Assembly (NCBI GenBank): GCA_002783405.1
Contig: PFGG01000066.1
Location: forward strand, 1 to 64,000
From: a bacterium (Candidatus Blackallbacteria) CG13_big_fil_rev_8_21_14_2_50_49_14
GTDB taxonomy: Bacteria > Cyanobacteriota > Sericytochromatia > UBA7694
DNA length: 64,000 nucleotides
Reading direction: 5' to 3'
Below the pieces are notes generated by a model. The model searched no databases and was not told where the DNA came from. It was given only the letters and a program-made list of their open reading frames with translations. Made by a program: the position numbers and the translations under genes. Positions 32,549 to 50,952 of the stretch are shown here, in pieces; position 1 is the first letter of the stretch; the number at the start of each line of letters is the position of its first letter.

Positions 32549-34762
32549 ATGCAAAGCCCTTCCCTCTACCAATTGGCCGAAGCCTACGCCCAAAATAAAA
32601 AATGGCCAGAAGCCCTTGCCGCCTATGCACAATATTATCGGGAGCACCCCCATGAAGGGGTGGCTCCACTCTGTGCTATGGCACGAATACACAGGTATCA
32701 GGACCAATTGGAGCAAGCCCATGAACTGCTGACCCAGGCCCTTGAGGAGGCACCCGAAGACAGCACCTGCCATTTGGAACTGGGCCATCTTTTTTTCAAG
32801 ACCGGTCAATTAGAACACGCCGTACGCTATTTTCAGCAGGCCCTGAAGCTTGATCCACTTTGTGCAGAAGGCTATTATTGGCTGGGCCGGATCTTTCAAC
32901 AGGAAGGCCACCAGACCCAAGCCCTGCGTTTTTATCAACAAGCCGTTGAGATTCGGCAAGATTATCCTGAGGCGCTCAATGCCTGGGGCGTGATTGCCCT
33001 GGCCACTGACGATCTGGAAAACGCCGCCAAGGTCTTGAAACAAGCCGTTCAATTGCGTCCTCTGAATTATGAATACCACAAGCACTTGGGCCTCAGTCTG
33101 TTTTGGCTTAAACAGGAACCTGAAGCCATCGAACATCTGCAAAAAGCAATCGCGCTCTATCCACGACTGGCCGAAGAATATCTGAATCTGGGCCAATTTT
33201 TTCTGAAGGAACATCAACGTCTCGCCGCCAGTTTCTTTTTCAAACTGGCTTTAAAAGGCAAAGGCGTCAGCCGTTCCTATCTCTATACCCGGCTGGGTGA
33301 ATGCGCTGAACAGGCCTCCGATCCCGAAGAAGCGCTGTATTTCTACCAACAGGCCCAAAAGCTAAAACCCGAAGACCCCTGGCTCGAAGTACGTGCCGCC
33401 ACGCTTCTGCCCTGGATTTATCAGAGCACAGAAGAAATTCAAGCCTGGAATCAACGCTATTCGCGTAATCTGGATTATCTTCTGCACAAATTCAACAAAC
33501 CATCAGCCCCTGAAAACACACGCATATCAGGCTTTACACAAAATTTTCTGCTGGCCTATCAGGGCTTGGACAACCATTCCCTGGCTGAAAAGCTAGCTGC
33601 CTTCTGGAAATCCCAACTACCGCATCCCCCGGCGCTCAAACCCCGCCCAGCCAAGCGCAACAGAATTCGGATCGGGTTTGTCTCTGCTCATTTTTATCAA
33701 CACTCGATCATGAGCTGTTTTGGTCAACTTATGCCCTATCTTCAAGCCAATGGTTTTGATGTCTATTGTTTTCAAATTGCACAACCCTTTCAGGATCAGA
33801 TCACCGCAAATCTCAAAGAACAGGTTCACTCCTTTGTGGATCTTTCCAAACAGACAGCCCTTGAAAAGCTGAGCGAAACCCTGCTGAAAGCCAACCTGGA
33901 TATCCTGATTTACCCAGAAATCGGTCTTGAAAATCTGACCCATCTTCTCAGCCTGCAACGCCTGGCTCCTCTGCAATGCCTACTGGCCGGGCACCCCGTC
34001 AGCAGTGGCAGTCCAACCCTTGATTATTTTATCTCCTGTCACCTATTTGAGCCTCCTGGAGCGCCCAATCATTACACTGAAAAGCTTTTCTGCACGCAGA
34101 ATCCGATTTTCTCAATCCCTTGCCCACAGCTCCCCTCAAAATTGCTGTCACGCAGTGAATTGGGATACCCCCAGGATCAACGCGTTTATCTTTTACCTGA
34201 AAGCCTGTTCAAAATGCATCCAGACATGGATCCGCTGCTAAAAGGAATCCTGGAGCAAGATCCCCAGGCCGTGGTGGTCATGATTTGTGCCCGCTACCAT
34301 GATTGGCATGAAAAACTCGCCACACGCGTTACCCATAGCCTGCCCGATCTGCACGGGCGCATCCGCTTTCTGCCCTGGAGCGATCAGGAGACCTTTTTCA
34401 TGCGTCTGCTCCAAGCCGATGTCATTTTAGACAGCCTGCATTTTGGGGCTGGCACCGTGGCTTATCAGGCTTTGGGGCTGGGATTGCCGATCGTGACCTG
34501 GCCAGGCCCCCTGATGCGGGCCCGGATTGTGTCAGGGCTTTACCAGCAAATGGGGCTCAAGGAGTGTCTTGCAGACTCTGGCGAAAAATATATTGAAATT
34601 GCCTGCCGTTTGGGGCAGGACAGGGTCTGGCGCAAAGAAATCGCTGAAAAAATTAAGGCCCATAACGCGATCATTTTTGATCCGAACCCAGGCTATGCTG
34701 AACTTTCTGCATTTTTCAGACGCATGGTCTTGTCACAACGCGCGCCCGAAAACCAGGCTTAG
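32549..34762 (+). CDS. TPR protein with GT41 (O-GlcNAc transferase-like) domain, copy 1
   Basis: 737 residues. About nine tetratricopeptide repeats fill residues 1-~290 (e.g. CHLELGHLFFKTGQLEHAVR, AEGYYWLGRIFQQEGHQTQA). A GT41 domain follows: RIGFVSAHFYQHSIM with the His equivalent to the OGT active-site region, LAGHPVSSGSPTLDYFIS (OGT: GYPGTSG..MDY), LFKMHPDM with the UDP-phosphate Lys, LDSLHFGAGTVAYQALG and GLPIVTWPG. Such enzymes sugar Ser/Thr of proteins; here targets are unknown. Two paralogues lie at 46666-50952; this copy is the most divergent. Its stop overlaps the convergent M19 gene by four bases. Confidence 0.92.
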   Translation: MQSPSLYQLAEAYAQNKKWPEALAAYAQYYREHPHEGVAPLCAMARIHRYQDQLEQAHELLTQALEEAPEDSTCHLELGHLFFKTGQLEHAVRYFQQALKLDPLCAEGYYWLGRIFQQEGHQTQALRFYQQAVEIRQDYPEALNAWGVIALATDDLENAAKVLKQAVQLRPLNYEYHKHLGLSLFWLKQEPEAIEHLQKAIALYPRLAEEYLNLGQFFLKEHQRLAASFFFKLALKGKGVSRSYLYTRLGECAEQASDPEEALYFYQQAQKLKPEDPWLEVRAATLLPWIYQSTEEIQAWNQRYSRNLDYLLHKFNKPSAPENTRISGFTQNFLLAYQGLDNHSLAEKLAAFWKSQLPHPPALKPRPAKRNRIRIGFVSAHFYQHSIMSCFGQLMPYLQANGFDVYCFQIAQPFQDQITANLKEQVHSFVDLSKQTALEKLSETLLKANLDILIYPEIGLENLTHLLSLQRLAPLQCLLAGHPVSSGSPTLDYFISCHLFEPPGAPNHYTEKLFCTQNPIFSIPCPQLPSKLLSRSELGYPQDQRVYLLPESLFKMHPDMDPLLKGILEQDPQAVVVMICARYHDWHEKLATRVTHSLPDLHGRIRFLPWSDQETFFMRLLQADVILDSLHFGAGTVAYQALGLGLPIVTWPGPLMRARIVSGLYQQMGLKECLADSGEKYIEIACRLGQDRVWRKEIAEKIKAHNAIIFDPNPGYAELSAFFRRMVLSQRAPENQA

Positions 34763-36135
34763 CGCAGTACCTGCTCAAAGACACGCATAAAACTGCCCCC
34801 CAAAACCTGCTGGATTTGCGTATCTGAGTATCCCCGCTTACGCAATTCAGCCGTAATTGCAGGAAATTTGGCAGCATTTTCAAGCCCAACGGGAGGAGGC
34901 GCATCCAGCCCATCAAAGTCTGAACCCAAGCCGACATGACTGGCTCCCACCAATTTGACAGCGGCGTCGATATGATCGACGACCTTGGCCAGATTCGAGC
35001 TGCGGCGCACATCAATAAAGGGAGGATAAAAATAAATTCCTACGGTTCCCCCCTTGTCGGCCAATAATTTAAGCATCTCATTGCTGAGATTGCGGGCATG
35101 CATTCTCACCGAACGAATACCCGAATGAGAGGCAATCACGGGCTGAGTGGAGGTCTTGAGCACATCATAAAAAGCAGCATCTGAGATATGTGAAACATCT
35201 ACCAGCATGCCTAACTTGTTCATGCGTTGAATTACTTCTTTGCCAAACTTGCTCAAGCCCTTCCAACGGGGCCGCTGGCTGGCACTGTCGCCCAAAAGGG
35301 TATGGGTGCTCCAGGTCGGACTCAGATAGCGCACCCCCTGTTTATAAAAATAATCCACATTGTCAAGCGAACTGCCCAGGGGGTCGCCCCCCTCCATGCC
35401 CATCAGCCCTGCAATTTTGCCTTGCGCGACAATCCGCTGAATATCGGGATAGCTATAGGCCAGCTCAATTTTATCGGGGTGCGCAGCCACCTGCTGTTTG
35501 ATCGTTTTAATAATAAAATCAGCCTGACTTTTGGCAAGTTTGCGGTAGCGCCAGGGATTCACGAATACCGAAAAGAAAACCACATCGACGCCGCCCTCTT
35601 TCAAGCGCTGTAAATCCACTTGGCCACGGGGATTTTTATCCAGTTTGGTACGCGTCTCTGTCAACAAAAGCGGGGTTTCAACATGGGTATCAACCACAAC
35701 CGCTTGCGCATGCAAGGTTTTTAAATCCAAAGGCCCTGAAGGAGAGGGCATGGGGCTGGCCGCAACACTGGCCGATGCGCTGGGAGAAGCAGAGGGTCTG
35801 TGATCCAGCAGCATAATCGGAGTCGGGGTTCCAGCGGGGCCAGGACTGCCAGAAGCACTGGGGTTCCCAGAAGCCTCTGAAGAGGGAGCAGAAGAGGGAT
35901 TGGCCGAAGCCACCGCCTGGCGAACCCGGGCTCGCCATTCAGCATCAGCAGAGACAGTGGGTAGAGCTGAAGGTCGTATCGGCTCGGCACTGGCTTGACT
36001 GGTTTTTTGAGCTTGCAACCCTGCCACAGATACTTCACTGACAGGCACCGGGCTTTCCACGGAATAGCGAACCATGGCAGCGCCCCCCATCATGATCAGG
36101 GAAGCTCCCAAAAGAATGACCGCTTTGCTACTCAT
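34759..36135 (-). CDS. Membrane dipeptidase (M19, renal dipeptidase family)
   Basis: Zinc dipeptidase. 458 residues. An N-terminal membrane anchor (~5-22) is followed by ~110 residues of Ser/Ala/Pro low complexity, placing the catalytic domain outside the cytoplasm. Catalytic landmarks: VVVDTHVETP (usually D-x-H-x-D), MGMEGGDPLG, LVDVSHISDAAFYDVL, IASHSGIRSV and GLGSDFDG. The second metal ligand Asp of HxD is replaced by Glu, which may alter metal binding. In some bacteria M19 enzymes cleave D- or L-dipeptides from peptidoglycan turnover. The ATGA overlap with the upstream GT-methyltransferase gene indicates co-transcription. Confidence 0.92.
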   Translation of the reverse strand: MSSKAVILLGASLIMMGGAAMVRYSVESPVPVSEVSVAGLQAQKTSQASAEPIRPSALPTVSADAEWRARVRQAVASANPSSAPSSEASGNPSASGSPGPAGTPTPIMLLDHRPSASPSASASVAASPMPSPSGPLDLKTLHAQAVVVDTHVETPLLLTETRTKLDKNPRGQVDLQRLKEGGVDVVFFSVFVNPWRYRKLAKSQADFIIKTIKQQVAAHPDKIELAYSYPDIQRIVAQGKIAGLMGMEGGDPLGSSLDNVDYFYKQGVRYLSPTWSTHTLLGDSASQRPRWKGLSKFGKEVIQRMNKLGMLVDVSHISDAAFYDVLKTSTQPVIASHSGIRSVRMHARNLSNEMLKLLADKGGTVGIYFYPPFIDVRRSSNLAKVVDHIDAAVKLVGASHVGLGSDFDGLDAPPPVGLENAAKFPAITAELRKRGYSDTQIQQVLGGSFMRVFEQVLR

Positions 36136-37802: not shown

Positions 37803-38585
37803 ATGACGCTGATCTTGGCCATTCCCACAACACAAGGCATTGTTCTGGCCTCAGACACCCAGTATACCAGCGGTGAAGTACGCACCACGGGCCCCAAAAT
37901 TTACCCCTTGAACAATCAGTGTGCCTGGGCCGGCGCCGGCGAAATTGCTCTGATTCAGCGCGTTCAAGAAGCAATAGAATCGGCTCCCAACCGACATTCT
38001 CTGAATGAACTGCGCGATACCCTGGCACGGATGGTACAGCAGTCTGTACGCACCTTACTGGATTTGGATGTGCTCACAGAATTCGTTCAGGCTGACCCTT
38101 CTTTGCTGCTTTCACTCCACCCCGGAGATTTTATCTTTGCCGAGTACCATCAGGGAGAGCCGCGCATGCTGCATATCACCAGCAGTGGCACCCCCGAATG
38201 GATTTCCAGCCTTTTTGCCAGTGGCAATGGCGCGAATTTTGCCTATGCCCTGATGCAAAAATACCAAAACACCTCCCTCAGCCTTGAAAGCGCCAGTCTT
38301 CTGGCCTATAAGGTCATTGATGAAACCATTCAGGTGGGAGCTTATGGACTGGATTATCCGATTGATATCTGGCTGATTCGTGAACAAGGCTTGGGACGCC
38401 TGGAAGAAACCGAAATGCTCCTTTTGGCAGAAATGACAGAAACCCTGCGTCAGAAAGAGGTGCGTCTGCTGCACCATGTGCCTTTCAGTTTTACCGGTTC
38501 AGAAAAAGCCACAAAGCCCAAAGCTCCTGCGAAAAAAAGAAGTGCGGGCCCTGTCAAAAAAAATAAAACCGAAAAACCAGCTTAG
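37803..38585 (+). CDS. Proteasome/HslV-type Ntn hydrolase
   Basis: 260 residues. Removing Met1 exposes Thr as N-terminal nucleophile, as in HslV. Numbering from that Thr: Asp17 (GIVLASDTQYTSG), Lys31 (GPKIYPL, matching Lys33 of HslV/proteasome beta) and the CAWAGAGEIALIQRVQEAIE segment that follows in the family (usually GxxxD/A). The core runs to ~residue 215 and is followed by a Lys/Pro/Ala tail (KATKPKAPAKKRSAGPVKKN). It lacks a propeptide. No hslU or other AAA ATPase is adjacent. It may be a self-compartmentalising peptidase or a BPH/Anbu-like relative. Family by motif; activity and assembly are inference. Confidence 0.72.
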   Translation: MTLILAIPTTQGIVLASDTQYTSGEVRTTGPKIYPLNNQCAWAGAGEIALIQRVQEAIESAPNRHSLNELRDTLARMVQQSVRTLLDLDVLTEFVQADPSLLLSLHPGDFIFAEYHQGEPRMLHITSSGTPEWISSLFASGNGANFAYALMQKYQNTSLSLESASLLAYKVIDETIQVGAYGLDYPIDIWLIREQGLGRLEETEMLLLAEMTETLRQKEVRLLHHVPFSFTGSEKATKPKAPAKKRSAGPVKKNKTEKPA

Positions 38586-38603: not shown

Positions 38604-39194
38604 TTATTCTTTGGCAGCAGAGGACCCTGTTTTCTGAGATTTCAAGCCCTCCAATTCCTGTTTCAAAGCTGCAATCTGCTGTTCCAAAGAGGAAATTCGA
38701 TCTGCTTTGCTCTGATCAGAAGTATCTTCGGCTTCTCCCTCAGCTTTTTCACTGGGATTTGAAACCTTGTCCATGACCTTGTGAATATTCTCTGAGCCTT
38801 TTTCAAGCATTTCTTTAATAAAACGGGCACGCTGGTCTTCGGCCAGTTCCCCGCGTTTAATCAATTCGTTCACAATTTCTTCAAGTTTTTCATGGGTCAG
38901 AGAGGCCAAGCCAATGCCGCCCAAAAGAAATTTCTTGATCACCGACTCAATATTCTGACCTTCCTGAATCAGGCCCTGCAGCACAAATTTATTCAGAAAA
39001 AGCTGCTTGGTTTCAAGGTTCTCCTGAAGAAAGATTTGCCCCAGAATTTTAGGGGTAATATCATGTCCCTGGCTATCGACCACCTGAATATCATCGCCCT
39101 GGCGGATCATATCGGCGATCTCGCCAAGATTCACAGTTTTACTGGTTTGGGTATCGTAAAGTTTACGATTGTCGTATCGTTTAATGACTCGCAC
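38604..39194 (-). CDS. phaR: PhaR-type regulator with PHB/PHA accumulation DNA-binding domain
   Basis: 196 residues from GTG 39194, which has GGAGA seven bases upstream and begins VRVIKRYDNRKLYDTQTS, exactly where the PHB_acc_N domain starts; earlier starts up to 39326 run through the promoter. The conserved core includes VNLGEIADMIRQGDDIQVVD and DITPKILGQIFLQE. The rest is helical with a C-terminal coiled coil (ISSLEQQIAALKQELEGL). PhaR represses phasin and storage-granule genes in PHA producers and binds PHA; no pha genes lie in the window, so the target is unknown. Symbol provisional. Confidence 0.82.
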   Translation of the reverse strand: MRVIKRYDNRKLYDTQTSKTVNLGEIADMIRQGDDIQVVDSQGHDITPKILGQIFLQENLETKQLFLNKFVLQGLIQEGQNIESVIKKFLLGGIGLASLTHEKLEEIVNELIKRGELAEDQRARFIKEMLEKGSENIHKVMDKVSNPSEKAEGEAEDTSDQSKADRISSLEQQIAALKQELEGLKSQKTGSSAAKE

Positions 39195-39233
39195 GGTCTG
39201 TTCTCCATCTTTGGCCTGTAGCAGAATGGTACT

Positions 39234-39263
39234 ATCGTATGCGATCCGCACGGGGAACGTCAA
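39234..39263 (-). promoter_or_regulatory. Promoter of the phaR-like gene
   Basis: Minus-strand -35 TTGACG (39263-39258), 18-base spacer, -10 TACGAT (39239-39234). Its position fixes the gene start downstream, at 39194. Confidence 0.65.
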
Positions 39264-39275
39264 ACAATAGCGCAA

Positions 39276-39305
39276 TTGCCAAAAGCCTGGATCAGGCCCT
39301 ATGAT
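39276..39305 (+). promoter_or_regulatory. Promoter of the CFA-synthase-like gene, nearly leaderless
   Basis: -35 TTGCCA (39276-39281), 18-base spacer, -10 TATGAT (39300-39305), each five of six to consensus. Transcription would start at about 39312, three bases before the ATG. Confidence 0.6.
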
Positions 39306-39314
39306 GGTGAGATC

Positions 39315-40346
39315 ATGTGGTATCAAAATCTACTCAAACAAAATAGAATTCCAGATTCGCTGATCCGAACTGGCATTCGCTTTTATAATCGTCAGCACCT
39401 GCGCCGCCTGAACCAGCCCGGCAAAGAAACCCTGCGCAAAAATTTGCTGCAACGGCTGGAAAGCTTTCCCGTTGCAGCAGTGCCCGAAAAAGCAAACGAG
39501 CAGCACTACGAAGTACCTGCCGCTTTTTTTGAAAAAGTACTGGGTCCCCATTTAAAATACAGCTGTGGCTTTTGGCCGACAGGTCAAGAAACACTGGCGG
39601 AAGCTGAAGCAAAAATGCTAGCCCTGAGTTGTGAACGGGCCCAACTCAGCAACGGTCAGGCCATTCTGGAATTGGGGTGTGGCTGGGGCTCCCTCAGCCT
39701 GTATATGGCCGAGCAGTATCCTCAAAGCCAGATTACAGCGGTCTCAAATTCCCACAGCCAACGCCAGTTTATTGAAGCACGGGCCCAGGCCAGAGGGCTT
39801 GAAAATTTAAACATTATCACGGCTGATATCAACGATTTTGCTCCCGAGCAGAAATTTGACAGAATCGTCTCCGTTGAAATGTTTGAACATCTGCGCAATT
39901 ACCCTGAGATTTTTAAACGGATGAATACCTGGCTCTATCCCAACGCCAAAGTTTTTATCCATATTTTTGGTCACCGTGAGCATCTCTACCTGTTTGAAGT
40001 TGAGCATCCCCGCGACTGGATGGCCAAGTATTTTTTCAGTGGCGGCACCATGCCCAGTCAGGATCTGCTTTTGAATTGCTGTGACCCACTTGAACCGATT
40101 CAATTTTGGGTTGTGAATGGGCAACATTATCAAAAGACCAGTGAAGCCTGGCTGGCCCGTATGGATCAACACAAACAAGATCTGCTGCCGCTATTTGCCG
40201 AAACCTATGGCAAAGAAAATACCACACGCTGGTGGGCCTATTGGCGCATCTTTTTCATGGCCTGTGCCGAACTTTTCGGGCACAGCCAAGGCCAGGAATG
40301 GCAGGTTTACCATTATTTATTTGAGAAACGCGCTCAGGATGCTTGA
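39315..40346 (+). CDS. Cyclopropane-fatty-acid-synthase-like methyltransferase
   Basis: 343 residues from the ATG at 39315; the frame opens at a TTG at 39276 that coincides with the -35 box. SAM site AILELGCGWGSLSLYMAEQY with ITAVSNSHSQRQFI, then FDRIVSVEMFEHLRNYPEIF, all typical of the CFA synthase superfamily. The preceding NEQHYEVPAAFFEKVLGPHL/KYSCGFWP block is the family's substrate-side signature. Full CFA synthases carry an extra N-terminal domain and are ~380-420 long; this shorter form resembles coclaurine-N-methyltransferase-like proteins common in bacteria. Acceptor unknown. Divergent from phaR. Confidence 0.88.
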   Translation: MWYQNLLKQNRIPDSLIRTGIRFYNRQHLRRLNQPGKETLRKNLLQRLESFPVAAVPEKANEQHYEVPAAFFEKVLGPHLKYSCGFWPTGQETLAEAEAKMLALSCERAQLSNGQAILELGCGWGSLSLYMAEQYPQSQITAVSNSHSQRQFIEARAQARGLENLNIITADINDFAPEQKFDRIVSVEMFEHLRNYPEIFKRMNTWLYPNAKVFIHIFGHREHLYLFEVEHPRDWMAKYFFSGGTMPSQDLLLNCCDPLEPIQFWVVNGQHYQKTSEAWLARMDQHKQDLLPLFAETYGKENTTRWWAYWRIFFMACAELFGHSQGQEWQVYHYLFEKRAQDA

Positions 40347-40452: not shown

Positions 40453-41355
40453 TCAATTCAGTTGGCTGAGAACCGAATTCATACGGTGCAAATGACTGGC
40501 AACTTCAGCAGAGGTTTCGTCAATAATCGTCATAATGCCTTTGGCTTGAACCATCTGACCTTGCCATTCCTTTTGGAAGGAACCATTCCAACGGCTCCAG
40601 GCATCATCCAGTTCAGCTTTGATCTGCTGGCGATCCTCTGGGCTGATGGTTTCAATAAAAGGACCTTGCGTTGTAAAGAATTGGTTATAAAGCAGATTGG
40701 CTTTTAAGGCTTCGTTATAGGTGGTAATCCCGTGCTTCTTGGCTTCATTGAGTAAACCCACAGCCTGATCACGGTATTCGGTAACACGTGCCATTAAAAC
40801 CTGCTTCTGCTGAGGATCCAATTGTTTCCACTGGGAATGAATCTGTTCAGCAGCTTCAGCTGCCTGGGTGGCATAATAACGGGCACCCCAGGTAATCCGG
40901 TTAGAGGTTTCACGGGCCTGCTTAGAGGCATCACTGTGAGCAGCAATCAACTGTACAGCCTGTTGTGGCGATTGCACCTGCTGGGCCTCCTGTTGCATGA
41001 GTTGCTCAATATTGGCCATGGCAGGCCCTTCGGGAATATCCTTGGGCAAGGTAAACACAATTTTAGCGGGTTCAGCTGGCTGGTTGGGTTTTCCAGGTGC
41101 CGTGGCAGGCTGTTCCAAGAAATCAACCGGTTTGCCATCAGGCCGGTGAAAAGGCGAAAGCTGAGATTGTTTATCGTGCAAAAGGTTAATATTGGGCTGA
41201 ATACCCCTTGCCATGGGCTGGGTTTGTACACTGTCGGCATTGAACCCCCCTGGAGCACCCGTTTCACCGTTGCGTGCAAAAGGAGAAACAGGTGAACGAC
41301 CGGGCGTTGCTCCGGGAATTGGCGTATTATATGCGGGTTGTTGTACAGAAGGCAT
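40453..41355 (-). CDS. Unrecognised Pro-rich/helical protein, paralogue B
   Basis: 300 residues. The first ~110 are Pro/Gly/Asn/Gln-rich and disordered. The remainder is all-helical and clearly homologous to the C-terminal part of the next gene upstream: shared landmarks are QVQ-P-x2-A (VQSPQQA vs VQDPGTA), a His with small residues (AAHSDASKQAR vs DLHAKKALDNR), TYNEALKANL versus TYDEALYANL, and an aromatic DAW-x2-W. No membrane helix or signal. SD AGAGGTAAG lies at the end of the upstream gene six bases away, so the two form an operon. Function unknown. Confidence 0.82.
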   Translation of the reverse strand: MPSVQQPAYNTPIPGATPGRSPVSPFARNGETGAPGGFNADSVQTQPMARGIQPNINLLHDKQSQLSPFHRPDGKPVDFLEQPATAPGKPNQPAEPAKIVFTLPKDIPEGPAMANIEQLMQQEAQQVQSPQQAVQLIAAHSDASKQARETSNRITWGARYYATQAAEAAEQIHSQWKQLDPQQKQVLMARVTEYRDQAVGLLNEAKKHGITTYNEALKANLLYNQFFTTQGPFIETISPEDRQQIKAELDDAWSRWNGSFQKEWQGQMVQAKGIMTIIDETSAEVASHLHRMNSVLSQLN

Positions 41356-41361
41356 CTTGAC

Positions 41362-42369
41362 TTACCTCTGGATGACAACCCGGCCGAGGATCTGGTCTAC
41401 CTGATTGAGATAGGCCGTCACGGTCCCCACCGAGCGTGTAAAGACTTCAGGTGCAGCCGGTAATTTCTTGGTAAAGAAAAGATACTGGCTTTCTTCAACG
41501 CCTGTGGTCCAGGCTTTCCAGGCATCCTGAACCGTGCGATTGGCATCCTGTGCCAAAGCGGGAACCTGTGGGAAACGAGGCAGAAGCTCATCCATGGCCA
41601 GATTGGCGTAAAGCGCTTCATCATAGGTCGCCTTGGTATACTCTTCAGCACGTTTTAAAGACTCAAGTGCCTGGCTCTTTTTGGACTCCAATTCACTCAG
41701 GGTCTGATTTAGCTGTTGAGGAGGCATACGGCCCTGGCTCTGTTCGATTCGCTGTGCCAAAACAGAAGCCTCTTGGGCCAGTGATTCAGCATGGCGGGCT
41801 TCTTCTTCAGCCTGACGGCGGTTATCCAAAGCTTTTTTAGCGTGAAGATCAATATGGCGGAAAGCCGTTCCGGGATCTTGTACCTGTTGCAAATCACCGG
41901 CAACAACCTGACGGGCCTGATTGATATCGGTTCCGGGAGGTGCCTGGGGCATGGAGCCTCCAGGAGGCATCATTCCAGGCTGCGCACCTCCGGGCATAGG
42001 AGGTTGGCCCTGTTGAGGCTGCTGTTGCTTTTGTTTGTCTTTGCCAATGCCAAAGAAACCAAGAATACCTTTAATGACTTTTACAACCAGGCTGACAATG
42101 GTATTCAAGATCTTGGCAATAATACTGGTCAGAGAGGTAAAAATATTGCCAATCCCACTGGCGGCACTGCTGATCGAGCTGGAGGCACCATAGGCTGCGG
42201 AAGCACCTTGAACATAACCTGTCTGGTAAGGACCTGTGGGGCGATAGACATCATTGGCATAGCCAGGAGAGCCATAGGGCACCTGACCAGAGGGGACATA
42301 GGGGCCGTTGGGGTTTCCATAGGTAGGAACAGGGGCTCCGTAGGCCGGATATTGGGGCGAAATATTCAC
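41362..42369 (-). CDS. Unrecognised Tyr/Pro/Gly-rich protein with amphipathic segment, paralogue A
   Basis: 335 residues, GTG start with GGAGG eight bases upstream. Order: Tyr/Pro/Gly-rich N-terminus (1-~60), a hydrophobic/amphipathic stretch at ~68-110 (IFTSLTSIIAKILNTIVSLV, then VKVIKGILGFFGIGK) that could insert in a membrane or wrap a surface, a Gln/Pro/Met-rich linker (~112-145), then the same helical domain as paralogue B with TYDEALYANL. The domain contains a coiled-coil-like run (NRRQAEEEARHAESLAQEA). Function unknown; perhaps a structural or surface-associated pair. Confidence 0.82.
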   Translation of the reverse strand: MNISPQYPAYGAPVPTYGNPNGPYVPSGQVPYGSPGYANDVYRPTGPYQTGYVQGASAAYGASSSISSAASGIGNIFTSLTSIIAKILNTIVSLVVKVIKGILGFFGIGKDKQKQQQPQQGQPPMPGGAQPGMMPPGGSMPQAPPGTDINQARQVVAGDLQQVQDPGTAFRHIDLHAKKALDNRRQAEEEARHAESLAQEASVLAQRIEQSQGRMPPQQLNQTLSELESKKSQALESLKRAEEYTKATYDEALYANLAMDELLPRFPQVPALAQDANRTVQDAWKAWTTGVEESQYLFFTKKLPAAPEVFTRSVGTVTAYLNQVDQILGRVVIQR

Positions 42370-46665: not shown

Positions 46666-48684
46666 ATGATTTCCAACGAAGCGCAAAGGTATTATCAGCA
46701 AGGTTGTGATCTGCAGCTGGCAGGCCAGCAAACTGCGGCGCTTGACGCTTTTCTGCGTGCCCTGGAACTGGATCCAGGCTTGAGTCTCGCCCATCTCCAA
46801 GTCGGCCAACTCTATCTCGAAGCTCAAAACGATCTTGATTTGGCCCAAGCCGCTTTTGAGAAGGCCCTCAAGTTCAACCCCCAATGCGCCCCTGCCTATT
46901 ATCATCTGGGTCAGGTTCAATACCAACAGGGAAAACCTGTTTCAGCCCTGCAAAACTGGCAACGCTATCTGCAGTTTCAACCTGAAGACAGCAAAGTTCA
47001 ACTTGAAATCGGAGATCTGCTGGCTGAACTTGGAAAAAAGCAACAGGCCAATAACCGCTATCTCAAAGCAAGCAGTCTGGCCCCTCAAAACCAGGAGGCT
47101 TTGGATCGCCAGGTTCAAGCCGAGATCAGTCAAAATCCGCTCCAGTTTTACCAACTCATGCAAGTCTCAGAACAAACCTTTCCCAACGAAAGTTTAGAGT
47201 TGGCACGCAATCTGGCTTTTCTGCTTGAAAACAAAGGGTTTCTCAAAGAAGCCCGCGAGTGCTACGGCAAAGTTCTGGCAAGCCCCCAACTCCCTGATCG
47301 GCTGGCCTGGGAACTCAAACAGGATCTTTTGGTGCCTGTTTTTCCCAGCTCTCAGGCCCAGCAATTGCACTATCTTGAAAAGACCCGTCAAAGTTTAATC
47401 GCCTGGGAAAACCGTCAACTGCCAGCAGCTCCCCCCATTCAAACCAATCTCAGCAATCTTGGGCTCTATCTGCTCAATTGGGTGCCCCTCGAAAACATGG
47501 CCTATAGCGCTTATAACCCCGCCCAGGAGCGTCGTCGCCTGGGACAGGTGCTGCACAAACTCCTGCCCCCCCAAGCCCCGCTGCGCCACGCTACCCTGCG
47601 CAAGCAAAAACGGCGCATCGGTTTTGTTCTGAGTGCTTCGGGGGCCGTTTTAAAATTCATGGTGGGCCTGCTGCAACGCCTGCCTACGAACATTTTTGAG
47701 ATTTATATCCTGCATACCGATAAGGTCAGTGCCGCCTATTTCTCAGCAGAGCGGCTGCAGCCCCAGTTTCAGTACCATTTATTGCAGGAATCGCCTCGGG
47801 CAGTCGTTCAGCAAATTCGTGATCTGGAACTGGATATTCTTTACCTGACCGAGCCCAATGCCCAACAGGGCATGCAAAGCCTTTTGGCAAGTTTCAGGCT
47901 GGCCCCGGTTCAGGTCACCTCCTGGCTCAGTTCAGGCACCACCGGCCAACCCCATCTTGACTATTTTCTTTCCAGTGAATTGGTTGAGCCCCCTGAAAAC
48001 CCCGCGCAATACTATACAGAACGCTTGGTTTTACAGAAAACCCTGCCCACCTATTTTTTTCGCCCCCCTCGGGTTCGCAAATATCAGCGCAGTGATTATG
48101 GGCTGCCCGAAACAGGGCAACTCTATCTCTGCCCCCATCTGATGCATAAAATTCAACCTGATTTTGAAACCCTGATGGCCGAGATCCTGCGCGCAGATCC
48201 CGAAGGCCACCTGGTTTTACTGACCAACCCCAATAATGAGGAATTGCGGGGCCTTCTGTTGCAACGCTTTGAGCAAAATATCCCCGAGCTCATGTCGCGG
48301 ATTTGGTTTTTGCCTTACCTCAAATCTGAAGAATATCTGAATCTGCTTGAAATCGGGGATGTCAGTCTGGATCCGCTCTATTTCGGGGGGGGAACCACCA
48401 GTTATGAAGCCCTGGGAAGTGGAATTCCCATGATCACCCTGCCCGACCCTGAGCGCCTGCATGGGCGCGTGACCCTGGGATGCTACCGCAAAATGGGCCT
48501 GGAAGCCTGCATTGCCAAAGATCGCCAGGATTACGTACAAAAAGCCCTTGCCATTGCCTCGGATAAAAAACGCAATGCCGAGATTCGCGCTGAAATTCTG
48601 GCCCAGGCCGATCAACTGTTTGAAGATCAGGCAGCTGTCAGCGAACTCTGCGAATTCTTAAGTTCGGTCAGTCTGCGGGCCTGA
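46666..48684 (+). CDS. TPR protein with GT41 (O-GlcNAc transferase-like) domain, copy 2
   Basis: 672 residues. About four tetratricopeptide repeats in ~1-135 (AQRYYQQGCDLQLAGQQTAA, APAYYHLGQVQYQQGKPVSA), a helical linker to ~300, then GT41: RIGFVLSASGAVLKFMVGLL, SWLSSGTTGQPHLDYFLSSE, HLMHKIQPDFETLM with the UDP-binding Lys, RIWFLPYLKSEEYLNLL, LDPLYFGGGTTSYEALGSG and GCYRKMGLEACIA. Where OGT and copy 1 have His near HSIM/HPT, this copy has SGAVLKF, so the active-site region differs. Closest to copy 3 directly downstream. Substrate unknown. Confidence 0.92.
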   Translation: MISNEAQRYYQQGCDLQLAGQQTAALDAFLRALELDPGLSLAHLQVGQLYLEAQNDLDLAQAAFEKALKFNPQCAPAYYHLGQVQYQQGKPVSALQNWQRYLQFQPEDSKVQLEIGDLLAELGKKQQANNRYLKASSLAPQNQEALDRQVQAEISQNPLQFYQLMQVSEQTFPNESLELARNLAFLLENKGFLKEARECYGKVLASPQLPDRLAWELKQDLLVPVFPSSQAQQLHYLEKTRQSLIAWENRQLPAAPPIQTNLSNLGLYLLNWVPLENMAYSAYNPAQERRRLGQVLHKLLPPQAPLRHATLRKQKRRIGFVLSASGAVLKFMVGLLQRLPTNIFEIYILHTDKVSAAYFSAERLQPQFQYHLLQESPRAVVQQIRDLELDILYLTEPNAQQGMQSLLASFRLAPVQVTSWLSSGTTGQPHLDYFLSSELVEPPENPAQYYTERLVLQKTLPTYFFRPPRVRKYQRSDYGLPETGQLYLCPHLMHKIQPDFETLMAEILRADPEGHLVLLTNPNNEELRGLLLQRFEQNIPELMSRIWFLPYLKSEEYLNLLEIGDVSLDPLYFGGGTTSYEALGSGIPMITLPDPERLHGRVTLGCYRKMGLEACIAKDRQDYVQKALAIASDKKRNAEIRAEILAQADQLFEDQAAVSELCEFLSSVSLRA

Positions 48685-48843: not shown

Positions 48844-50952
48844 GTGCAAGAAGAACTCGAACATTTTGAAGAAGCCCAGCAGCTCCATGCCGAAGGGCAA
48901 TGGGGGCTGGCTGCACTGCACTACCAAATGGCACTGGAATTGGCTCCCGATTTCAGTGAGGCCCGTTATCAACTGGGGTTGCTTCATAAAGCCCAACATG
49001 AACCTGAACAAGCCATTCTCTGCTTCAAAGAAGTGCTTGACCACAATCCCCTGTTTGCTGCCGCCTATTTTCAACTGGGGCAAATTTACCAAAGCTATTA
49101 TGGTGCCTTTGAAGAAGCCCTGCACTATTATCGCAAAACACAACAATTGGATATGCAATATGCCGAGGCCTATTACTGTGCAGGCATGCTGCAAAAAGAA
49201 CTGGGACAATTTGCCCAGGCTTCGCAGAGTTTTCTGAAATTTGTTCAGTTTCAGCCCGACCGTGCCGATGTTTATACCCAATTGGGTGAATTGATGACCT
49301 ATTTGCAACAGCCCCTCAAGGCCAGCCAATACTACTCAAAAGCACTTGAAATTGACCCCGAAAACACCCAGGCCCTGATGCCCTGGCTGCACCTGAAGAT
49401 TGGGCAAGACCCCCATAAAATGATGGCCTTTCTGATCGAGATCGCAACGAGCTATCCCCATTTGCGCAGCCAGATCGCCTGTCAGGTGGGGCGTCTGATG
49501 GAGGGCATTGACGATACTGACGAAGCACAAAAATGCTACCAGATGGCCCTTGAAGATCCTGAGCTGCCCGACCGGGAAGCCTGGCAACTGAAAGAGGCCC
49601 TACTGCTGTCCCTCTTTCCCAAAGACAAGGCCAGCCAGGAAGCCCAGATCGAAAAACTCAAGCACAGCCTGCAGACCTTTGAAGCCGATCCCCACTTTTT
49701 AGCCGAAAACAAAATTCACGAAGATTTCAGCAATGCCGAAAGCTATTTTCTGAGCTGGCATGCCCTGCTACAACTGGCCTATACGGCGCATGACCCCCGT
49801 GTGCCTCGAGAGCAATTGGCGCGTTTATTGCAAAAATGCCTGCCCCCCCTTCCAGGCCAGCCCCGCCAAAGCCTGCGCCCAGACAAACGCCGGGTAGGCT
49901 TTGTCTTATACGAATCAGGCGCTGTGCATAAATTTTTAATCGGCATTCTGCAACGCCTCTCCGACCCCGAGCTTGAGATCTTTATTTTCATGAGCGAATA
50001 TGGCTCTGCCTATTTCTCCCCCATGCTGCAAACACGCGACTTTGAACAAATTCTGCTCTCCAATCAGGTGCCTGAAGCCCTTCAGCAAATTCTGGAGGCC
50101 GATCTGGATATTCTCTTTTTCTCAGAGCCCAATACCACGCATATGAACCAGACCCTTCTGGCCGCCTATCGGCTGGCCCCCATTCAGGTCACTTCCTGGC
50201 TCAGTTCGGGCACCACGGGCCAACCGCATATGGACTATTTTCTTTCCAGTCATCTGCTGGAAAGAGCCGAAAACCCACAGGATTTGTATTCCGAACAACT
50301 GGTGCTGAATCAAACCATCCCCACCTTTTTCGCACGCCCCGAAAAGCCCACCCCTTGGCCACGCTCTGACTATGGCCTGCCAGCAGAAGGGCGCCTCTAC
50401 CTCTGCCCCCATGTCATGAGCAAACTGCAACCTGATTTTGACGCCATTTTGGCAGGCATTCTCAAACAGGATCCTGAAGGACAGCTGGTGCTGGTAACCA
50501 ACCCCGATCTGCCTGCCAATCGCGATGCGCTTTTGCTCAGGTTTGAAGCCGAAATGCCCGAACAGCTTCCTCGGATCTGGTTTTTGCCCAAACTCAATCC
50601 CGCCGATTTTCTCAGCCTGCTGTTGCTTGGAGAGGTAATGCTCGATCCACTCTACTTTGGGGGCGGCACCACCAGCTATGAAGCCCTGGCTTTGGGCTTG
50701 CCTGTGGTGACCTTGCCAGGTGAAAGACTCCACGGGCGCATCACCCAGGCCTGTTATCTCAAGATGGGCATCACAGAGTGCATCGTTTCAAGCCCCGAAG
50801 CGTATATTGCAACGGCGGTCAAAATTGCTACAGATGCTGAATACAATCAAGCCTTACGTGAAAAAATTCTGCAAAAATCGGGGCTGATCTTTGAAGAAGC
50901 CTTGGCAGTTCGGGAAATGGAAAACTTTCTACGCACGGTACAGATACGATGA
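48844..50952 (+). CDS. TPR protein with GT41 (O-GlcNAc transferase-like) domain, copy 3
   Basis: 702 residues, GTG start with AGGGGAAG upstream. Six or so tetratricopeptide repeats (~1-230), then GT41 much like copy 2: RVGFVLYESGAVHKFLIGIL (a His returns where copy 2 has Leu), SWLSSGTTGQPHMDYFLSSH, HVMSKLQPDFDAIL, RIWFLPKLNPADFLSLL, LDPLYFGGGTTSYEALALG. The long identical blocks show that copies 2 and 3 arose by a tandem duplication, later diverged. The stop overlaps the phosphatase gene by four bases (ATGA), giving a coupled pair. Protein target unknown. Confidence 0.92.
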   Translation: MQEELEHFEEAQQLHAEGQWGLAALHYQMALELAPDFSEARYQLGLLHKAQHEPEQAILCFKEVLDHNPLFAAAYFQLGQIYQSYYGAFEEALHYYRKTQQLDMQYAEAYYCAGMLQKELGQFAQASQSFLKFVQFQPDRADVYTQLGELMTYLQQPLKASQYYSKALEIDPENTQALMPWLHLKIGQDPHKMMAFLIEIATSYPHLRSQIACQVGRLMEGIDDTDEAQKCYQMALEDPELPDREAWQLKEALLLSLFPKDKASQEAQIEKLKHSLQTFEADPHFLAENKIHEDFSNAESYFLSWHALLQLAYTAHDPRVPREQLARLLQKCLPPLPGQPRQSLRPDKRRVGFVLYESGAVHKFLIGILQRLSDPELEIFIFMSEYGSAYFSPMLQTRDFEQILLSNQVPEALQQILEADLDILFFSEPNTTHMNQTLLAAYRLAPIQVTSWLSSGTTGQPHMDYFLSSHLLERAENPQDLYSEQLVLNQTIPTFFARPEKPTPWPRSDYGLPAEGRLYLCPHVMSKLQPDFDAILAGILKQDPEGQLVLVTNPDLPANRDALLLRFEAEMPEQLPRIWFLPKLNPADFLSLLLLGEVMLDPLYFGGGTTSYEALALGLPVVTLPGERLHGRITQACYLKMGITECIVSSPEAYIATAVKIATDAEYNQALREKILQKSGLIFEEALAVREMENFLRTVQIR

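Follow-up and report, generated by a model that had tools for sequence, protein, structure and literature searches.

A predicted lone proteasome-type Ntn hydrolase with a narrow distribution in the cyanobacterial class Sericytochromatia

The window analysed is a stretch of 64,000 nucleotides from a bacterial genome of the class Sericytochromatia. At positions 37,803 to 38,585 of its plus strand lies a gene for a protein of 260 residues, which starts with MTLILAIPTTQGIVLASDTQYTSGEVRTTGPKIYPL and which, judging from its sequence and a structural model, is an Ntn hydrolase of the proteasome type. The features of the gene are as follows.

37803..38585, plus strand: coding sequence of the proteasome-like Ntn hydrolase, 260 aa (open reading frame, Pfam, orthologues, model)
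37806..37808, plus strand: codon of Thr2 (Thr1 once Met is removed), predicted N-terminal nucleophile (invariant in 3/3 orthologues; model superposition)
37854..37856, plus strand: codon of Asp18 (Asp17), invariant in the orthologues and the aligned Anbu sequences
37896..37898, plus strand: codon of Lys32 (proteasome Lys33), invariant in the orthologues and the aligned Anbu sequences; KIY motif of archaeal beta subunits
37932..37934, plus strand: codon of Gly44 (oxyanion-hole Gly47), invariant in the orthologues; alignment with archaeal beta subunits
38064..38126, plus strand: short helical insertion between H2 and S5, residues 88-108, at the pore-loop position (two short helices, pLDDT about 56-71)
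38403..38474, plus strand: C-terminal helix H5, residues 201-224 (helix 202-224 in the model)
38487..38582, plus strand: basic C-terminal tail, residues 229-260 (absent from the G003 orthologue; dN compared with dS)

PF00227 (Proteasome) was the single Pfam family matched by the hydrolase, and the match was far above chance level (52.8 bits, E 5.2e-14, cut-off 22.4). With NCBIfam models and a limit of E 1, the hits were confined to archaeal proteasome beta (E 3e-10) and alpha (E 0.025), both far below their cut-offs, and no HslV model matched. In profile comparisons against a small set of sequences, E was about 1e-4 with the Anbu HMM, 0.006-0.05 with the HslV HMM and about 1e-5 with the phage-set HMM. 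By sequence, the hydrolase appears to lie at much the same distance from Anbu as from the HslV/phage homologues. The protein carries the marks of the PF00227 family, namely a score above the curated cut-off, a predicted S1-S11 sandwich with helices H1-H4, and the Thr, Asp17, Lys33 and Gly47 positions.

When numbering starts from the Thr left after Met removal, Thr2, Asp18, Lys32 and Gly44 of the open reading frame become Thr1, Asp17, Lys31 and Gly43. All four are unchanged across the three orthologues found. Lys31 lies in a KIY motif, which falls on the Lys33 region (kkiyqi) in the alignment with archaeal beta subunits, and Gly43 aligns with the oxyanion Gly47. The original prediction had lined up the N-terminal Thr, Asp17 and Lys31 with HslV and proteasome beta; the residues were found at these positions, and the conservation of Thr2 on which that reading depended was seen in the orthologues. 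No ATG, GTG or TTG occurs ahead of the ATG in this genome's open frame and, thus, the hydrolase has no propeptide. In the HMMER alignment, Asn142, Gly179 and Gly182 stand where the proteasome has Ser129, Asp166 and Ser169; these three secondary active-site residues appear to be replaced, which counts against a fully standard active site.

AlphaFold prediction with the three orthologues gave a poor model (pLDDT 43.7), for which Foldseek placed Anbu at the top, followed by proteasome chains, with low TM. A second alignment was made with 23 cyanobacterial Anbu rows added and the tail trimmed. Strands S5-S7 were misplaced in the alignment with Anbu fragments, which was corrected by the trimming of the tail. 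The resulting model was confident (pLDDT 84.7, pTM 0.84; Foldseek E 1e-12). With VIA-align, it matched the Mycobacterium tuberculosis 20S beta subunit at Z 23.4 (2.5 A over 210 residues, 18% identity), with residue 2 superposed on residue 301, which is Thr1 of that subunit. The Z scores with the Thermoplasma acidophilum beta subunit and with Anbu were 21.8 and 21.0, respectively. The 23 Anbu rows may tilt this model toward the Anbu/proteasome fold. The low-confidence model built without them gave the same top folds, and the Pfam match is likewise independent of these rows. An Ntn-type fold, which the original prediction stood or fell by, is what was predicted.

In the confident model, H1 spans residues 48-60 and H2 spans residues 67-87, the loop between S3 and S4 is short, and a C-terminal helix (H5) is present in the monomer. 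Conservation of this helix is lower than elsewhere in the core. Within the pore-loop insertion (residues 88-108), 16 of 21 residues are invariant; this does not stand out in the core, where 62 of 204 sliding windows are equally conserved.

The host lineage, which has been little studied, is sister to the photosynthetic cyanobacteria. Among 18 genomes sampled from the class, 3 carry the gene (this genome and two others); in a search of 386 phylum genomes, no further genome had it. The two further orthologues come from a species of the same genus (83% identity) and from another genus of the same family (64% identity). Other phyla were covered by a one-pattern scan of GTDB contigs, which may miss distant relatives and in which the copy from the same genus was the sole match. 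The protein had no hit in phage and plasmid collections with E limited to 1, and the orthologue profile had none in IMG/VR. Within the genus, the core showed a dN of 0.09 with saturated dS, and between genera dN/dS was about 0.1; by these rates, the core is under purifying selection. The hydrolase is a new member, restricted to its lineage, of a family already known, rather than a new kind of machine. A second lone proteasome-like open reading frame, of non-Anbu type, was seen in an Anbu-bearing cyanobacterial genome (L045:821-1558, minus strand; weak PF00227 match, E 0.011).

The last 30 residues of the hydrolase contain 10 K/R and 2 D/E, so the basic tail noted in the original prediction is real in this protein. 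It is missing in the third orthologue (G003), and its dN was 0.70 versus a dS of 0.56 (G000 and G001 compared over few sites). For these two reasons, the tail is not a family feature, and its sequence is evolving with no visible constraint.

The hydrolase gene is the sole PF00227 gene of a genome estimated to be 96% complete. Neither HslV nor a second PF00227 subunit was found there and, with one such gene only, the separate alpha and beta subunits of a 20S proteasome were not seen. No hslU or ring ATPase gene lies near the hydrolase gene, which agrees with its original description as a lone gene. Of the two unfoldases that had been named for a search of the genome, ClpX was found and HslU was not: the best match to Escherichia coli HslU is ClpX by NCBIfam, scoring 666 bits (over the clpX cut-off) and 211 bits with the hslU model (under its cut-off of 362). 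No gene matched the Mpa/ARC ATPase of Pup-type proteasomes above the family cut-off, and a PADLOC scan for defence systems gave no match.

A divergent methyltransferase gene lies 54 bases from the hydrolase gene, when its first ATG is taken as the start, and a PhaR-like gene is convergent with the hydrolase gene. This neighbourhood is common within the genus and wholly different in the second genus and, therefore, the hydrolase gene is considered solitary. The PhaR-like and cyclopropane-synthase neighbours were not taken to be partners because a species of the same genus has their block and the second genus does not. The PhaR-like protein (38604-39326, minus strand) joins a PhaR-like DNA-binding domain (PF07879) and then a phasin-related stretch in one chain, and beside its gene is that of a cyclopropane-fatty-acid-synthase-like methyltransferase (39276-40346, plus strand). 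A family M19 membrane dipeptidase, whose N terminus resembles a signal sequence and which has a Ser/Pro-rich linker, is encoded at 34759-36135 (minus strand), two genes from the hydrolase gene; this arrangement is kept in the same genus and not in the second. Two adjacent proteins without a Pfam match (40453-41355 and 41362-42369, both minus strand) are 78-85% identical in a species of the same genus. Three TPR proteins within 19 kb contain an OGT-like glycosyltransferase family 41 domain (32549-34762, 46666-48684 and 48844-50952, all plus strand). Elsewhere in the genome, a TPR-AAA protein of 455 residues (L080:3528-4895, minus strand) combines TPR repeats with a single CDC48/PAN-like AAA domain. 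Five further genomes of the class encode it at 56-80% identity, and it scores above the cut-off of no NCBIfam ATPase model.

Proteins of this family assemble as closed rings (HslV, BPH), as an open split ring (Anbu) or remain monomeric (connectase). Our analysis favors, as the most likely reading, that the protein is probably a homo-oligomeric N-terminal-threonine hydrolase working without a dedicated unfoldase. Methionine aminopeptidase would remove Met1 and expose Thr1, which would act as the N-terminal nucleophile together with Asp17, Lys31 (the Lys33 equivalent) and Gly43 as the oxyanion hole. Using H1-H4 and H5, subunits would self-assemble as a full or partial homo-oligomeric ring whose active sites face inward; such self-compartmentalization, as suggested in the original prediction, cannot be inferred from the monomer model. 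The substrates would be a limited range of peptides or unfolded proteins, hydrolyzed without a dedicated AAA+ unfoldase, and the pore-loop insertion may restrict access. In favor of this reading stand the Pfam and NCBIfam matches, the confident model with its structural matches, the four invariant residues, the purifying selection on the core, and the single PF00227 gene in a genome without HslU. The mechanism is drawn after Anbu (PMC5666114) and BPH (PMC5777263), which bind epoxomicin at a Thr1 that is exposed without or after processing and which have no known unfoldase. Anbu was inactive on standard peptide substrates (PMC5666114) and, thus, a proteasome-like fold is no guarantee of proteolysis.

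The original prediction had also allowed for an ATPase encoded elsewhere, in which case the hydrolase would be the peptidase of an ATP-dependent protease and would dock to a housekeeping or orphan AAA+ unfoldase such as ClpX, an FtsH-like protein or the TPR-AAA protein. ClpX and FtsH-like genes do exist in the genome, and the single-domain, CDC48/PAN-related TPR-AAA protein, whose top NCBIfam hit is CDC48 at a score under the cut-off, is shared by the three genomes that have the hydrolase. However, the latter was also found in three genomes without the hydrolase (G002, G004 and G016), which ruled it out as a co-inherited partner, and its C terminus is EYLKL rather than an HbYX motif. No ATPase adjoins the hydrolase gene in either conserved context, and neither the 22 families described by Fuchs, Alva and Lupas (2021) nor BPH has a known AAA+ partner. 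Since HslU is absent and the TPR-AAA gene is shared with relatives that have no hydrolase, no ATPase is tied to the hydrolase, and docking to such a partner is unlikely.

Another explanation that we regard as improbable is that the hydrolase is a strongly diverged Anbu with the same peptide pathway. The two proteins can be aligned end to end (about 20% identity to cyanobacterial Anbu), give weak reciprocal HMM matches (E about 1e-4), share the C-terminal helix and the ID-x-T and P-I-D motifs, and superpose at the Z of 21.0 given above. Yet the hydrolase reads DTQYTSG where nearly all fetched Anbu sequences have SRTNAG, phage homologues score it at least as high as Anbu does, and the best structural matches of the model are 20S beta subunits. 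The Anbu genomic association (Alpha-E, ATP-grasp and transglutaminase), judged on Alpha-E (PF04168) alone, was not seen: none of the three genomes with the hydrolase (G000, G001 and G003) has this operon partner, but an Anbu-bearing cyanobacterium (G084) does. A specialized Ntn enzyme other than a protease, for example a ligase like connectase or a hydrolase of small amides, is less probable still. Monomeric ligases do exist in the family, as connectase illustrates (PMC8665760), and the apparent loss of the Ser129, Asp166 and Ser169 equivalents would suit such a change of function. The loss of H1-H2 and the two-helix insertion between S3 and S4 that mark connectase were not found in the model, where H1 and H2 are present and the insertion is at the pore-loop site.

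The hydrolase brings a proteasome-like enzyme to a class of the cyanobacterial phylum that showed no PF00227 gene besides it, and it offers a further lone beta-type subunit for asking how such proteins act without an unfoldase. It is possible, and we suggest it tentatively, that it represents an undescribed proteasome-like subfamily of one Sericytochromatia family, lying between Anbu, 20S beta and HslV/phage proteins, with a helical pore-loop insertion and an assembly of its own.

Among known systems, the best structural match was to 20S beta subunits (M. tuberculosis 7PXA and 5LZP; T. acidophilum 1PMA), at Z 21.8-23.4 with Thr1 on residue 2. Unlike these, the hydrolase has no propeptide, no alpha subunit gene and no Mpa/ARC ATPase above the family cut-off. 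Anbu (PDB 5NYW, 5NYG and 5LOY) shares the fold, the Met-Thr N terminus without a propeptide, the C-terminal helix and the lack of an AAA+ gene, but the segment from H2 to S5 is longer in the hydrolase, in addition to the differences in SRTNAG and Alpha-E. HslV and BPH resemble it as lone homomeric beta-like subunits with Thr1; BPH, a tetradecamer compared here through its described features, resembles it further in lacking an unfoldase and in its long pore loop, which in BPH is acidic. HslV differs in its HslU partner and in the NCBIfam HslV model, which the hydrolase does not match, and both HslV and BPH lack the C-terminal helix H5. Fuchs, Alva and Lupas (2021) described 22 further uncharacterized proteasome-like families, delimited as CLANS clusters at P 1e-10, for which no AAA+ partners were found (PMC8665760). 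These precede our protein, so that "new," offered as a possibility in the original prediction, is too strong a word and "under-described" fits; lone proteasome homologues were already known in bacteria to be common and uncharacterized, and this picture is unchanged. By that paper's description, its lone families (WPH, PHI, PMI, CPH and others) resemble the hydrolase in fold, in the Thr/Asp/Lys triad and oxyanion Gly, in having neither a propeptide nor an AAA+ partner, and in their narrow distribution, whereas the insertion of the hydrolase, at only about 20 residues, is unlike theirs. WPH and PHI, both placed close to the proteasome, have a C-terminal coiled-coil helix and a helical pore-loop insertion, respectively (PMC8665760), and these two elements, compared through the text of the paper, resemble the C-terminal helix and the pore-loop insertion of the hydrolase.
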